Part shown: piece by piece, positions 56,632-64,000 of the stretch
Layout: the number at the start of each line of letters is the position of its first letter
Position numbering within the stretch: position 1 is the stretch's first letter
Assembly: GCF_020991365.1 (NCBI RefSeq)
Contig: NZ_JAJLRA010000003.1
Location: 248,001-312,000, forward strand
Direction of reading: 5' to 3'
Length of the DNA: 64,000 nt
Source: Streptacidiphilus sp. ASG 303
GTDB taxonomy: Bacteria > Actinomycetota > Actinomycetes > Streptomycetales > Streptomycetaceae
Notes under the pieces: model-generated
The model's database searches: none
Seen by the model: the letters and a program-made list of their open reading frames with translations, nothing else
Told to the model about the DNA's origin: nothing
Made by a program: the position numbers and the translations under genes

Positions 56632-56704
56632 TAGCGGTGACCGGACTTGAACCGGTGACACAGCGATTATGAGCCGCTTGCTCTACCGACTGAGCTACAC
56701 CGCT
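56632..56704 (-). tRNA. tRNA-Met (CAT, elongator type)
   Basis: A 73-base cloverleaf: acceptor AGCGGTG/CACCGCT fully paired, which is unlike an initiator; D arm AGCTCAGTCGGTAGAGC; anticodon loop CTCATAA (CAT); T arm CCGGTTCAAGTCCGG; discriminator A. CCA not encoded. A CAT anticodon could also mark a tRNA-Ile modified to lysidine, but the position next to tRNA-Thr and rpmG favours tRNA-Met. Confidence 0.9.
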
Positions 56705-56733
56705 TTGATGGCCAGGAAGGACCTGGTCACCAG

Positions 56734-56806
56734 AGCCCCAATACGGAATCGAACCGTAGACCTTCTCCTTACCATGGAGACGCTCTGCCGACTGAGCTAT
56801 TGGGGC
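56734..56806 (-). tRNA. tRNA-Thr (GGT)
   Basis: A 73-base cloverleaf: acceptor GCCCCAA/TTGGGGC, D arm AGCTCAGTCGGCAGAGC, anticodon loop ATGGTAA (GGT), T arm ACGGTTCGATTCCGT, discriminator T. CCA not encoded. First gene of the thrT-metT-rpmG group. Confidence 0.94.
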
Positions 56807-59975: not shown

Positions 59976-61568
59976 TCACCCGACGGCGGCGGCCACCCCC
60001 CGCAGCACCAGACCGCAGCCCAGCGCCAGGACCAGCCCCGCCGTGCCCACCGGGACCAGACGGGAGGCGGCCCCCAGCAGACGGGCGCGGCCGGGGGCGC
60101 GCGTCCGGACGTGCGCCCAGCGCGTGAGGCGGTGCCCCGCGCGGACGGCCAGCAGGCCGACGCCGATGAGGGTGAGCGCCAGTCCGGCGCCGTAGGCGAG
60201 GACCAGCAGTCCGCCGAACCACGCCTGCCCGAGGGCGGCCGCGCCCACCAGCACGACGACGGCGGACGGGCTGGGCACCATGCCGCCGGCCAGCCCCATC
60301 ACCACGACACCGCGCAGGGACCGGCTGCCGCCCAGGACCCGGTGGCCGTGGTCGTGGCCGTGGCCGTCGTGGTCATGGCCGTCGTGGTCATGACCGTCAT
60401 GGGTGTGGCCGTCATGGGTGTGGCCGTCGTGGTCGTGGTCGTGATGCCCGTGCCCGTGCCCGTGGCCGCCGTCCCGCAGCGCGGTGCGGAGCAGGGTGAA
60501 CCCGGCGGCGGTGACCAGGAGTCCGCTCGCCACGCCCAGCCACGACAGCACCGACGGCGCGGCGGCCGAGCCGGCGGCCACCAGCAGGCCCAGGCCGAGC
60601 ACCCCCAGGGTGTGGGTGAGGGTGACCGTGAGGCCCAGGGCCGACACGTCGCGCAGGGTCCGCCGCCGCCCCCGGCCCGCGACCGCCGCCGCAGCCATGA
60701 TCGTCTTGCCGTGCCCGGGGGCGAGCGCGTGGAGCGCGCCCAGGACCAGGGCGGCGCCCAGCGCGAGCAGGGCGAACCCGGGCGTGAGGCGGTGCCGGGC
60801 CACCAGCCCGGTCAGCGCCTCCGACAGCCGGTCGGCGCCGCGCGGCAGGATGCCGGCCGGTGCTGCGGCGGGGGCTCCGGGCTGTGCGAGCGCCGGTCCG
60901 CCGGGGCGGACCCGGAGCGTCGCGCCGGTGGCGTCCGCCGGCGAGGAGAGGGCGTCGCGGGGGTAGGCGGTGAGCCGGGCGGTGCGGGAGGCGGAGGGGA
61001 CGTCCGAGGCGGTGAGCGTGGTGCGGTCGCCGCGGGCGGTGACCTCGTGCCAGCCGGGCGCGCCGTCGCCGCGGGCGGCGGTGAACACCAGCGCACGCTC
61101 CGCATCCGGCGCGTCGGGTGTCCCGGACGGGGTGGGCACGGCGGGCAGGGCGGCGGTGAGCAGGCACTCGACGCGCAGCGTGCGGAGTCCGGCCTGCCCG
61201 GGACGCGGCTCGGCAGCGGACCGGGCCACGGCGACCGGCCCGGTCCGGCGGCCGTCGACGGCCACGGCCGAGCCGCGGGCCGCCGCGGCGCAGCGCGTCC
61301 GCGCCCAGGAGGCGAGCTCCGCCGGCGCCGCGGTGCCGTCGTGGTCGGCGTCGACGTCGGGCAGGACCTGGGCGGCGGGGATCTCGGCGAGGTCCTCGAC
61401 GTGGTCGACGAGCAGCTGCCGGGCCCCGACGGCCAGGCCGTCGTAGCGGTTGACGGTGAAGTTGCCCAGGGGGTGGGCGGCGGCGGGTGCCGCGCCCGCG
61501 ACCGTGAGCACGGCCGCCGCCGCGGCGGCACCGGCGAGCCGCAGCGCGCGTGCCGCGGCCCTCCTCAC
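59976..61568 (-). CDS. NicO-type nickel/cobalt transporter with N-terminal extracellular domain and His-rich loop
   Basis: A 530-residue membrane protein. It has a signal peptide (VRRAAARALRLAG then a hydrophobic core ending PAAAHPLGNFTVN), so a mature His lies at the exported N-terminus. A 220-residue extracellular domain follows. The NicO/RcnA-like domain has six helices with the signature LHALAPGHGKT (about 278-288). A His/Asp-rich loop (about 364-408) is made of HGH, HDHD and GHTHD repeats and probably binds metal in the cytosol. GTG 61568 overlaps the TPR stop by 4 bases, so it is co-translated. Probably exports or imports Ni/Co; the direction is not clear. Confidence 0.85.
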   Translation of the reverse strand: MRRAAARALRLAGAAAAAAVLTVAGAAPAAAHPLGNFTVNRYDGLAVGARQLLVDHVEDLAEIPAAQVLPDVDADHDGTAAPAELASWARTRCAAAARGSAVAVDGRRTGPVAVARSAAEPRPGQAGLRTLRVECLLTAALPAVPTPSGTPDAPDAERALVFTAARGDGAPGWHEVTARGDRTTLTASDVPSASRTARLTAYPRDALSSPADATGATLRVRPGGPALAQPGAPAAAPAGILPRGADRLSEALTGLVARHRLTPGFALLALGAALVLGALHALAPGHGKTIMAAAAVAGRGRRRTLRDVSALGLTVTLTHTLGVLGLGLLVAAGSAAAPSVLSWLGVASGLLVTAAGFTLLRTALRDGGHGHGHGHHDHDHDGHTHDGHTHDGHDHDGHDHDGHGHDHGHRVLGGSRSLRGVVVMGLAGGMVPSPSAVVVLVGAAALGQAWFGGLLVLAYGAGLALTLIGVGLLAVRAGHRLTRWAHVRTRAPGRARLLGAASRLVPVGTAGLVLALGCGLVLRGVAAAVG

Positions 61569-63094
61569 CGCGTCCTCCCCTCGGCGGGACGGCCCGGGCC
61601 GGCGCCCCTCGGCCCGGCGCCCTCCGGCCCGGCGCCGTCCGGCCCGGCGCCGTCCGGCCCGGCGCCGCCCAGCGCGGCGAGGGCCGCCCGGGCGCGCGGT
61701 GCGTCCAGGGGGGCGAAGCCGGGGTCGAGCGAGAGGGCGGCGCGCAGGCTGCGGCGGGCGTCGGCGTCGCGGCCGAGCGCCTTCTCGATGATCCCCCGGT
61801 GGTAGAGGAAGAGGGCGTTGCGGTACCCGGTGGCCGTGGCGCGGCGGGCCAGGTCCAGGGCGCGGCGGTCGTCGCCGGCCCGGTGGAGGGCCCAGGCGTA
61901 GGCGTCCGCCACGTGGATGCCGTGCCGCCGCCCCCACTCGGCGCGGGCGGCCCGCACGGCGTCCGCCGGGTCGCCGTGGTCGGCGGCCACCAGGGCCGTC
62001 TCCAGGTCGGTGGCGACGCCGCCGGCCCGGGCGAGCGCGGTCCAGGCGCCGGTGACGGCGTACTGGCGGCGGGCCTGCTCCCGGTCGCCGAGGGCGGTGT
62101 CCAGGTCCCCGAGGAAGGCCAGCTTGTCGGGCAGCGGGAAGCGCCGCACGACGGCGGCCATGTCGGCGGCGGCCGCCCTCAGGTCCCCCTGTGCGGCGCG
62201 GGTGCGGGCCCGGCCCTCCAGGGCGGCGAGGTTGCCGGGGTCGGCGCGGAGCGCCTCGGCGTACCGGCGCAGCGCCTCCCGGTGGTCCCCCCGGCTGCGG
62301 GCGAGTTCGCCGAGGGCCGTCGCGGTGTACGCGACGTCGGACGGCGCGGTGGCCGCCGCGCGGGCCCGCAGCAGGACGCGGCGGGCTCCCGCGGTGTCGC
62401 CGCGCAGCTCCAGCACGTACGCGCAGCGGGTGAAGACGGGGATGCCGGGGCGGCGGCGGTCGGCCTCCTCGGCGGCGCGGCGGGCGTCCTCGTACCGGCC
62501 GAGCTCGACCAGGGCGTCGATGCGGACGGCGAGGGCGCGCTCCCCGTACGGGTTGAGGGCCAGCGCCCGGTCGGCCTCGGTCAGGGCGCGGGCGAAGTCG
62601 TGGCGGGCCGCGGCGAGGGAGGCGAGGCCGGCCACCGCGGCGTCGTTGCCCTGCGGGCGCAGCCGCAGGGAGGTGCGCAGGGCGCGCTCGGCCTGCGGGT
62701 AGCGGGCGGGGTCGGCGGTGGTGCGGGCCTGCTCGACGTACGCCTGGCCGAGGGCGGCCCAGGAGGCGTCGTCGCGGGGCCGGGCCCGGAGGCGGGCCTG
62801 CAGGGCGGCGATGCCCCGGGCCAGGTCACCCGTGCCGAGGCGGTCCAGGGGGGCCGCGGCGGGCGCGACACGGACGGGTACGGGCGGACGGACGGCCTGC
62901 GGCCGCGGAGCGGGCGCGGGACCGAGGACGACGGCGGCCACGGAGGCCGCCGCGGCGATGCCCGCGGCCGCGAGGGCTAAGGCGGTGGCGCGGCGGTCGG
63001 CGTCCTGCAGGACGGCGGCGCGGCGGACGGAGGCTTGGCGGACGGAGGCGCACAGGGCGGCGGCGCGGCGGACGGAGGCGGCGCGGGGCGGCAT
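61565..63094 (-). CDS. Membrane-anchored TPR protein
   Basis: A 509-residue protein. One membrane helix near 38-59 follows a basic N-terminus with SVRRAA repeats. The rest consists of about eight TPR-like helix pairs (WAALGQAYVEQA, YPQAERALRTSLRLRPQGND, HDFARALTEADRALALNPYG, YEDARRAAEEADRRRPGIPV, HREALRRYAEALRADPGNLA, RALDLARRATATGYRNALFL). The C-terminus is a Gly/Ala/Pro repeat (DGAGP type, encoded by a 15-bp tandem repeat at 61609-61668). It sits between the DUF4331 gene and the NicO gene and overlaps NicO by four bases. Likely a scaffold for the two partners. Confidence 0.85.
   Translation of the reverse strand: MPPRAASVRRAAALCASVRQASVRRAAVLQDADRRATALALAAAGIAAAASVAAVVLGPAPAPRPQAVRPPVPVRVAPAAAPLDRLGTGDLARGIAALQARLRARPRDDASWAALGQAYVEQARTTADPARYPQAERALRTSLRLRPQGNDAAVAGLASLAAARHDFARALTEADRALALNPYGERALAVRIDALVELGRYEDARRAAEEADRRRPGIPVFTRCAYVLELRGDTAGARRVLLRARAAATAPSDVAYTATALGELARSRGDHREALRRYAEALRADPGNLAALEGRARTRAAQGDLRAAAADMAAVVRRFPLPDKLAFLGDLDTALGDREQARRQYAVTGAWTALARAGGVATDLETALVAADHGDPADAVRAARAEWGRRHGIHVADAYAWALHRAGDDRRALDLARRATATGYRNALFLYHRGIIEKALGRDADARRSLRAALSLDPGFAPLDAPRARAALAALGGAGPDGAGPDGAGPEGAGPRGAGPGRPAEGRTR
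61609..61668 (-). repeat. 15-bp tandem repeat at the end of the TPR gene
   Basis: About four near-identical 15-bp GC-only units encoding GAGPD/GAGPE/GAGPR in the C-terminal tail of the TPR protein. Confidence 0.8.
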
Positions 63095-63208
63095 GCGGGG
63101 TCTCCTCCCGGTGCTGCTCCGCACGGGGCGGGCAGCCGGGGCTCGGCGGGCGGACGGGGCCCGGCGGGGGACGAGGACAGGGCGGGGGCCGACGGGCCCG
63201 GGCGGGAG

Positions 63209-63258
63209 GCGGGTGCGGCGGTCCGGGCAGCGCGGGTCGGCGGTCCGGCCGCACCCGC
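63209..63258 (-). terminator. Hairpin after the DUF4331 gene
   Basis: A 10-bp perfect stem (63209-63218 with 63249-63258) in the 241-base gap between the DUF4331 gene and the TPR gene. Long loop, no T-tract; weak evidence. No gene is seen in the gap. Confidence 0.35.
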
Positions 63259-63335
63259 GCCGCCCGGGCCCGTCACCGGGTCGGCGGACCTCACCGCGTC
63301 GGCGGACAGTCACCGGGCAACGGGGCGCCACCGGG

Positions 63336-64000
63336 TCAGCGGGCGTGCGCGCCGCTGCGGCGGCGCCTGCGGCGCCCCACGAGGAGCCCGGCGAGGAGCA
63401 CCGCGCCCACGGCGCCGCCCAGCCCGATGCCGACGGCCATCCCGTTGCCGCCGCTGCCTCCGGCCAGGGCGGCGAGGCCGCTCTCGGGGGCGGCCGCCTG
63501 CCCGTACGCGCCGGCCTGCGGGGCCCCGCCCGCCGACGCGCCCCTGGCCCCGGGGGCGTCGGAGCCCGCGTGCGGGAGGGCGACGTACGGGAACGCCTTC
63601 TCGAAGTCGACGTCGTTGGCGTCGACCGCGTCGCCCAGGTCGCTCCTGGCGCCCCTGAGCTCGCCGGTCACCGCCTGCAGGGCGATGTCGACCACGTCGT
63701 CGGTGAGCCGCCGCCCGTTGGGGAAGCCGGCCGTGTCGCCGTCCAGCACGCCGAGCCGCTTGGGCTCGGCGGCGGGCCTGACCGCGGTGTTGAGCCGCAG
63801 CACCTCGGACGGCCTGCCGCCCACGACCTCGTTGAGCTTCGGGACGCCGGTGAGGAAGACCTGCACCAGGTCGTCGCGGGGCTCGGCGGGCGCCGGGATC
63901 CTGTGGACGGCCTCCAGCAGCTTCGGCAGCTCGGGATTGGTGACCCGGCGCAGGAACTGCGCGTCGTCCCTCGGCTTGGAGGCGTTGAACCGGTCCTTCT
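63336..64000 (-). CDS. DUF4331-type surface protein, C-terminal part
   Basis: The frame runs off the right edge, so only the last 220 residues are seen. The region has VTNPELPKLLEAVHRIPAPA, FLTGVPKLNEVVGGRPSEVL RLNT, LDGDTAGFPNGRRLTDDVVD IAL and FPYVALPHAGS, a pattern I recognise from DUF4331 proteins (predicted beta-rich, metal-associated, function unknown). A Gly/Ala-rich linker follows, then a membrane helix (MAVGIGLGGAVGAVLLAGLL) with an Arg-rich cytosolic tail: a C-terminal anchor without an LAXTG sortase motif. Upstream of the TPR and NicO genes, same direction. Confidence 0.8.
   Translation of the reverse strand, partial: KDRFNASKPRDDAQFLRRVTNPELPKLLEAVHRIPAPAEPRDDLVQVFLTGVPKLNEVVGGRPSEVLRLNTAVRPAAEPKRLGVLDGDTAGFPNGRRLTDDVVDIALQAVTGELRGARSDLGDAVDANDVDFEKAFPYVALPHAGSDAPGARGASAGGAPQAGAYGQAAAPESGLAALAGGSGGNGMAVGIGLGGAVGAVLLAGLLVGRRRRRRSGAHAR

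Follow-up and report, generated by a model that had tools for sequence, protein, structure and literature searches.

A recurrent DUF4331–TPR–NicO gene cassette of Actinomycetota as a candidate extracytoplasmic unit for transition metals

The closest described counterparts of the system treated here are the anglerase domains Ang-1 and Ang-2 on HupE/UreJ-2 proteins, in which a signal peptide, a histidine as first mature residue (His1), an external beta-sandwich and a Ni-type permease are combined in one chain (PMC12537917). These domains have been proposed to fish for metal and feed it to the permease, that is, to serve uptake; RbAng-1a binds Cu (dissociation constant 73.6 nM) and Ni (220 nM), and in the Ang-1 crystal (9GCE) the Cu is held by His1 and Asn41 (PMC12537917). 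The commonest neighbours of anglerase genes are proteins of unknown function, which could include DUF4331, and the main text of that paper names neither DUF4331 nor TPR nor NicO. Here we describe three genes in a stretch of 64,000 nucleotides (the window) from Streptacidiphilus sp. ASG 303 (contig NZ_JAJLRA010000003.1, positions 248,001 to 312,000 of the forward strand), which encode a DUF4331 protein, a tetratricopeptide repeat (TPR) protein and a NicO-type permease with an exported N-terminal domain. The trio is a recurrent linked cassette, and we consider it somewhat probable that its products form one extracytoplasmic unit for the capture or delivery of a transition metal (Ni, Co or Cu).

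All three genes are neighbours on one strand, as a sequence-only reading of the window had stated; it is the minus strand. The DUF4331 gene (63336..64949, minus strand, 537 aa; L005:7337-8950) runs past position 64000, which is the window edge and not the end of the gene; the part inside the window (63336..64000, minus strand) holds its C-terminal 220 codons only. The protein matches PF14224 with 524.7 bits (cut-off 27) over profile positions 1-421 of 421, and a hydrophobic segment, MAVGIGLGGAVGAVLLAGLLVG, followed by RRRRRR (63375..63440, minus strand) is recognisable in the sequence as the C-terminal anchor that had been proposed for it. Its signal peptide is predicted to be cut at ...TPAAA|SSHREAP, beyond the window edge, to give the mature start S-S-H-R-E-A-P. 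At a spacing of 241 nt follows the TPR gene (61565..63094, minus strand, 509 aa), to whose product several TPR Pfam models match and whose likely start is the ATG at 63094, with a GGAGG-type ribosome site, GGGAGGAG, upstream; a longer open reading frame reaching 63331 is less likely than this ATG with its ribosome site. The sole hydrophobic segment of the TPR protein lies near its N-terminus (62921..62989, minus strand) and, judged from the sequence, would be the membrane anchor ascribed to it earlier. The four-base TPR–NicO overlap is likewise there, the GTGA at 61568-61565 being common to the TPR stop and the GTG start of the NicO gene (61568). A consensus scan showed no terminator-like sites between the trio genes on their own strand, and a promoter scan found no promoter, as expected.

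The NicO gene (59976..61568, minus strand, 530 aa) is predicted to encode an exported N-domain of about 200 residues, which fits the large exported domain of the sequence-only reading. By inspection, the predicted mature N-terminus is HPLGNF (61458..61475, minus strand; cut A-A-A|H) with histidine in first position, and a pattern search placed an EF-hand-like loop, DADHDGTAAPAE, in the same domain (61317..61352, minus strand). The permease core carries the motif HALAPGHGKT (60702..60731, minus strand) and a loop rich in His and Asp (60342..60470, minus strand), which had been given 45 residues and has 43, including 19 His and 10 Asp; this loop would be cytoplasmic if the N-domain lies outside and three helices precede the loop. 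All three proteins of the trio are predicted to face the outside, with signal-peptide cuts assigned by eye and by rule from the sequence alone.

The family name NicO is used because of a borderline PF03824 score (23.6 bits in a single-protein scan and 27.7 bits in a genome search with the neighbours in frame, at a cut-off of 27.7) and a match below cut-off to the RcnA subfamily PRK10019 (93.4 bits, cut-off 195, E 1.4e-26, residues 385-614 of a 653-aa open reading frame). RcnA has a His-rich loop, as the window protein has, and resembles it in the permease core; it differs in that the match stays below cut-off and that the window protein carries the exported N-domain. The NiCoT permeases (HoxN/NixA, PF03824) belong to the same Pfam family at the borderline score given above, but the window protein shows HALAPGHGKT where the NiCoT protein of locus L225 shows RHAFDADH. 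With regard to the anglerases, the likeness would comprise the signal peptide, His1, a Ni-type permease in the same chain and perhaps, going by a marginal model match, an external beta-sandwich. Unlike them, the window protein has a NicO/RcnA-like core, a His-rich loop and DUF4331 and TPR partners, and gave no match to PF13795 at E 0.01; the anglerase architecture (PF13795, His1) is found in the HupE_UreJ_2 proteins of the Pseudomonadota cassettes described below.

Linkage was surveyed in a draw of 198 Actinomycetota genomes (G numbers; loci carry L numbers), 38 of which contain DUF4331. A search with a model of the NicO N-domain (A1), built from 18 cassette members and therefore biased towards such members, gave 26 matches in 25 of the 198 genomes. 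As many as 21 of these matches lie in loci with both DUF4331 and TPR, one of which (L073) has a short-type DUF4331. Among the other five, DUF4331 is on a contig end in G149 and G189 and on a different contig in G084 and G022, while G017 has no DUF4331 and its match lies close to the start of a contig. Seen from the DUF4331 side, a TPR gene is adjacent in 28 of 33 full-length-type loci, and 20 of the 33 also have the NicO N-domain; contig ends truncate three of these loci (L050, L067 and L068), and a 34th gene (G149, contig end) was left out. The usual separation of DUF4331 and NicO genes had been named earlier as an argument against a single system, and the last figures point the other way for exported DUF4331.

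The same arrangement was found in the best 80 of 583 confirmed loci from named genomes, which come mostly from Streptomyces and also from Actinomadura, Nocardioides, Actinoplanes, Pseudofrankia and others. DUF4331, TPR and NicO lie on one strand in 68 of the 80, and L157 has all three with DUF4331 divergent; the rest are cut by contig ends (7), have TPR without a NicO match (3) or DUF4331 alone (1), so that all three genes are present in 69 of the 73 loci that are uncut. An ATGA or GTGA start within the NicO signal-peptide region, like that of the window, is possible in 55 of 61 loci. Turned or rotated genes occur as exceptions, such as L045, L065, L157 and L178. Apparent TPR–NicO and DUF4331–TPR fusions in L038 and L064 were rejected, the tblastn pieces crossing a stop or a frame change. 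DUF4331 is absent from G198 and G199, the genus mates of the window's strain, which indicates that the trio is not a core function in the genus.

Repeated co-occurrence in distant phyla had been named as a point that would favour one system. Evidence from other phyla rests on plasmids, for which a protein search gave 45 records; we examined 14 of the 20 full-length Pseudomonadota matches (H10-H29), two Bacteroidota records from one strain and three of the seven short-type Hyphomicrobiales records. Such co-occurrence was seen in Pseudomonadota with a different permease in the place of NicO: in 10 of the 14 full-length loci (L167, L168, L169, L170, L176, L177, L178, L185, L186 and L187) a HupE_UreJ_2 permease lies beside DUF4331 and a TPR-like or unnamed gene. 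PF13795 matched in all four of these permeases that were scanned, the others being identified by annotation or tblastn; a TPR assignment passes a Pfam cut-off in L169 alone, is weak in L167, L168 and L170, and was made by tblastn in some others. In Bacteroidota the pattern is partial, the two plasmids of the one strain having DUF4331–TPR only. The three Hyphomicrobiales short-DUF4331 records show an adjacent HupE_UreJ gene (L174), an adjacent HoxN/HupN/NixA gene (L188) and neither in the third.

Moreover, four actinomycetotal loci (L225, L229, L230 and L231) contain a strong NiCoT gene besides the NicO N-domain. In 38 genomes, chosen for holding short DUF4331, 4 of 41 strong PF03824 permease genes (at least 290 bits) lie within 5 kb of a full-length DUF4331 gene, against a rough chance expectation of 0.04; the four loci come from three genera. 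A further NiCoT-like gene (RHGIDLDH) was seen by eye after the TPR gene of L055. Ni/Co-type permeases of four kinds thus occur beside DUF4331.

Conservation in full-length DUF4331 is highest at ASSHREAP, which follows directly on the signal peptide. We examined 139 loci and obtained 128 frames with [SA]SHREA from 127 of them; the other 12 are 11 short-type loci and L060, whose gene is truncated by the contig end. The residue before the motif is alanine in 124 of the 128 frames, and 122 have Ala, Ser or Gly at position -3, so that cleavage by signal peptidase is expected directly before S-S-H. A wider list of 161 loci gave 155 such frames, 142 with a hydrophobic leader and 13 without, and in all 13 leaderless frames a start codon stands directly before SSHREA (10 ATG, 2 TTG and 1 GTG). 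Of the eight loci in this list that do not show the motif, two (L060 and L238) start at contig ends, one (L226) is an empty stretch and two (L173 and L174) are of the short type. In L247 an ATG immediately precedes SSHKEA, and the divergent, exported proteins of L223 and L224, each with a TPR gene, have Gly-Gly-His rather than Ser-Ser-His after the signal peptide. Leaving out L060 and L238, whose N-termini are lost at the contig ends, position 3 is His in 158 of 158 full-length DUF4331 proteins with an intact start, 144 after a leader and 14 directly after the start codon. A second full-length group (L212, L228 and L236-L247), mostly SSHREAPE, is solitary and lacks the signal peptide in 13 of its 14 loci, namely those with an intact start; neither the TPR nor the NicO gene turned up at any of the 14 leaderless full-length loci.

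The short DUF4331 proteins, which mostly have no signal peptide, would reach the same end by another route. In 45 of 47 short loci, found by similarity with no motif filter, a start codon stands directly before [SA]-[HND]-His; the two exceptions are L073, with a signal peptide and then A-D-H, and L199, which is without such a start and whose alignment begins inside the domain. This codon is the sole available start in 14 of the 45, as it is in the full-length L061, and the other 31 have one or more upstream starts. The start codon of cytosolic members would be placed exactly three codons before the histidine. Two further short genes of this kind, L006 and L007, lie on contig 33 of the window's own genome, with starts MSHHL and MSNHF and no TPR or NicO matches near them.

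Because an initiator Met before Ser or Ala is normally removed, signal peptidase cleavage and Met removal would both end in NH2-X-X-His. Such an end is the amino-terminal Cu(II)- and Ni(II)-binding (ATCUN) pattern, which requires His at position 3 and allows positions 1 and 2 to vary; by sequence, and given the predicted cleavage, it is present in full-length and most short DUF4331 proteins. Alanine stands first in 4 of 35 short proteins (ADH) and in 2 of 128 full-length frames (ASHREAP); in L223 and L224 the first residue is Gly, and their Gly-Gly-His is the textbook ATCUN peptide. The first two residues thus differ among DUF4331 proteins and the third is constant, in line with the ATCUN requirement. 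ATCUN proteins and the N-terminal metal loop of NikM/CbiM likewise use a free amine and an N-terminal His as metal ligands; to our knowledge these cases are unrelated to DUF4331 in sequence. In an alignment of 92 DUF4331 proteins, His reaches 40% at position 3 alone, and Cys and Met stay below 60% in every column; because the proteins were picked by motif, the sole informative point here is that other conserved ligands are absent. The stricter alignment filter missed 12 of the 47 short loci, which were counted in the start-codon survey, and L061 was excluded from alignment A2 because of a stop within its stretch.

At the permease end, A-x-A stands before HPLG[NKQR]F in 92 of 99 NicO frames (some loci were fetched twice), and all 10 HupE_UreJ_2 partners show A|H-x-x-S. 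The EF-hand-like loop lies at a similar place in both N-domains; the strict pattern fits 11 of 18 NicO and 5 of 10 HupE_UreJ_2 rows, and the loose one 14 of 18 and 10 of 10. A profile comparison of the two N-domains aligned them at this loop, weakly (probability 41.8, E 0.00027). An AlphaFold2 model of NicO had a mean predicted local distance difference test score (pLDDT) of 75.6, with residues 1-5 below 50. A VIA search matched this model best with the Ang-1 domain of a HupE/UreJ-2 protein in its Cu-bound form (9gce; Z 8.1, root-mean-square deviation (rmsd) 3.5, 136 residues aligned), at a level where models with no clear match typically have a best Z of 7 to 8; zinc-binding ZrgA (Z 7.4 and 7.1) and an unrelated chain (7.0) came next. 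Foldseek gave no match for the model at E 0.001, and by sequence neither N-domain alignment matched 9gce, the rows being mostly calcium-binding loops and chance matches. The 9gce match is marginal and supports, without proving, kinship of the NicO N-domain with Ang-1.

Going beyond the sequence-only reading, these patterns place the probable metal site of both partners at the mature N-terminus and bring to light solitary cytosolic forms of DUF4331. In the mechanism that we propose, exported DUF4331 would present a metal site at the surface, made of its free amine and His3 in ATCUN geometry. On the external side of the membrane, the NicO N-domain would bind a divalent metal through its free amine and His1, as an anglerase-like mono-histidine brace, and the anchored TPR protein would hold DUF4331 by NicO. 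Metal could then pass among DUF4331, the His1 domain, which would receive or give the ion, and the NicO channel; the NicO core would move the ion and its His-rich loop buffer it inside. Transport is probably inward (capture and uptake), by analogy, because NiCoT, HupE and HupE_UreJ_2 permeases replace NicO or adjoin it elsewhere. That DUF4331 is an undescribed metalloprotein family appears to us an evenly balanced proposition; its active part would be a free N-terminal X-X-His (mostly Ser-Ser-His, Ser-His-His or Ser-Asn-His), made by signal peptidase or Met removal, and exported members would work with a TPR scaffold and a His1 permease, the metal being handed between two chain ends.

Several observations weigh against this interpretation. 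The permease census favours cassette members through its model A1. The 33 Actinomycetota short-DUF4331 loci L189-L221 gave no matches to TPR, NicO, NiCoT or HupE_UreJ_2 queries (HupE_UreJ was not queried), and 14 of 27 full-length loci in a neighbourhood search, hand-picked from earlier search matches and not random, had no TPR or NicO match; it follows that DUF4331 can act without the unit. Four Rhodobacterales loci have no permease, and their DUF4331 gene is part of a type II secretion cluster. When the alignments are taken apart, His also reaches at least 40% at positions 2, 49, 327 and 343 of the short proteins, and the full-length proteins have His 62 at 44% and a Met column at 144 that reaches 60%, none of these columns being invariant. 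Profile comparison gives no more than a hint of kinship between the NicO and HupE_UreJ_2 N-domains, the 9gce score lies at the edge of the tool's meaningful range, and the His1 site is unreadable in the NicO model at the pLDDT of its first five residues. The NicO core is nearest, below cut-off, to the RcnA efflux subfamily, which argues for export, and an Rfam scan of 18 loci gave only tRNAs and, in L177, two xanthine riboswitches, with no metal riboswitch among the matches.

The RcnA likeness and the split between exported and solitary forms keep alive the alternative that metal is delivered outward, with NicO exporting it and TPR helping to load exported DUF4331, itself a metalloenzyme or redox protein; cytosolic forms would obtain their metal inside and so have no partners. 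The leaderless full-length loci without TPR or NicO and the usual TPR gene beside exported members fit this account, as do the many invariant acidic residues of DUF4331 and its occurrence alone, which suggests a job of its own. However, the cytosolic and solitary pattern is also expected under uptake, families known for uptake (NiCoT and HupE) replace or adjoin the permease in other loci, and uptake has been proposed for the closest described His1 domain (PMC12537917); we hold outward delivery to be unlikely, though worth serious attention. More doubtful still is an RcnA-like pump for metal resistance, with DUF4331 as a surface buffer that traps expelled metal. Besides the PRK10019 match, which is below cut-off, and the His-rich loop shared with RcnA, this account could draw on an ArsR/SmtB-type regulator gene about 3.6 kb upstream of DUF4331 in L183 and on RND efflux genes just downstream in three Pseudoalteromonas loci; but the regulator gene occurs at one annotated cassette with other genes between, the RND genes face the other way, and NiCoT-type permeases share some of the loci.

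Two further accounts appear very improbable. The apparent need for a free N-terminus and the Ser at position 1 of most sequences could mean that this Ser is a nucleophile, as in N-terminal nucleophile (Ntn) hydrolases, and the conserved His a catalytic base rather than a metal ligand; members with Ala1 or Gly1 are incompatible with a nucleophile, and the repeated pairing with Ni/Co permeases would be left unexplained. We rejected DUF4331 as an Ntn hydrolase for the lack of a conserved nucleophile in those members. That the three genes are neighbours by descent only, with no joint work, is hardly more credible: the 241-nt gap between DUF4331 and TPR leaves room for a separate promoter, but gene order is largely kept in both Actinomycetota and Pseudomonadota, with the permease position occupied by different families, and the TPR–NicO type of start overlap is widely possible. 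Neighbourhood by chance was rejected. The one-system interpretation of the trio is thus supported, and the function with metal is proposed from the sequence patterns.

DUF4331 also occurs in Pseudomonadota and Bacteroidota plasmids, and a literature search of a limited collection found no paper that names it. The N-terminal pattern turns this unknown domain into a question of one mutation and one assay (native N-terminus, Cu or Ni). If the proposed unit is real, the anglerase idea of metal capture would gain another permease type and two partner proteins.

An AlphaFold2 model of DUF4331 built with 20 related rows had a mean pLDDT of 60 and is usable only to about residue 245; it suggests a beta-rich domain. 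Its best VIA match was Sas6 (7uww; Z 8.2, rmsd 4.0, 174 residues aligned), followed by antibody domains at Z of about 6. Foldseek gave no match for the model at E 0.001, and a sequence search found no solved structure for DUF4331.

As for regulation, 57 of the best 80 named loci have an extracytoplasmic function (ECF) sigma gene no further than 1.6 kb from the start of DUF4331, divergent in 54, and 53 have an RskA-like anti-sigma gene; we take these pairs, in the set L087-L164 (e.g. L092:7293-8716), to be SigK-like and RskA-like. No ECF/RskA pair was found by tblastn at the window's locus, where a STAS gene lies upstream of DUF4331. The three Pseudoalteromonas loci with the downstream RND efflux operon have sigma and anti-sigma genes directly upstream.

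A sortase-like gene lies between DUF4331 and TPR in seven loci (L046, L183, L225, L227, L229, L230 and L235), and that of L183 is annotated as a class F sortase. In six of these seven, GG[VI][GA]AG-x-GG precedes the DUF4331 anchor, and the motif occurs in 0 of 129 other DUF4331 frames, among them a second copy in L225 and an oddly framed copy in L230; it is possibly a new sorting signal. In the Rhodobacterales plasmids L171, L179, L180 and L181, DUF4331 is flanked by prepilin peptidase and gspK-type genes and may be cargo of the type II secretion system. Several Gram-negative loci, with or without a permease, have a small lipoprotein-like gene with a Cys lipobox after DUF4331 (L167:9499-9804, L169:9431-9676, L179:8498-8710, L180:8542-8772 and L181:8570-8794). 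Near the cassette in the window lie two tRNA genes (56632-56806, minus strand).

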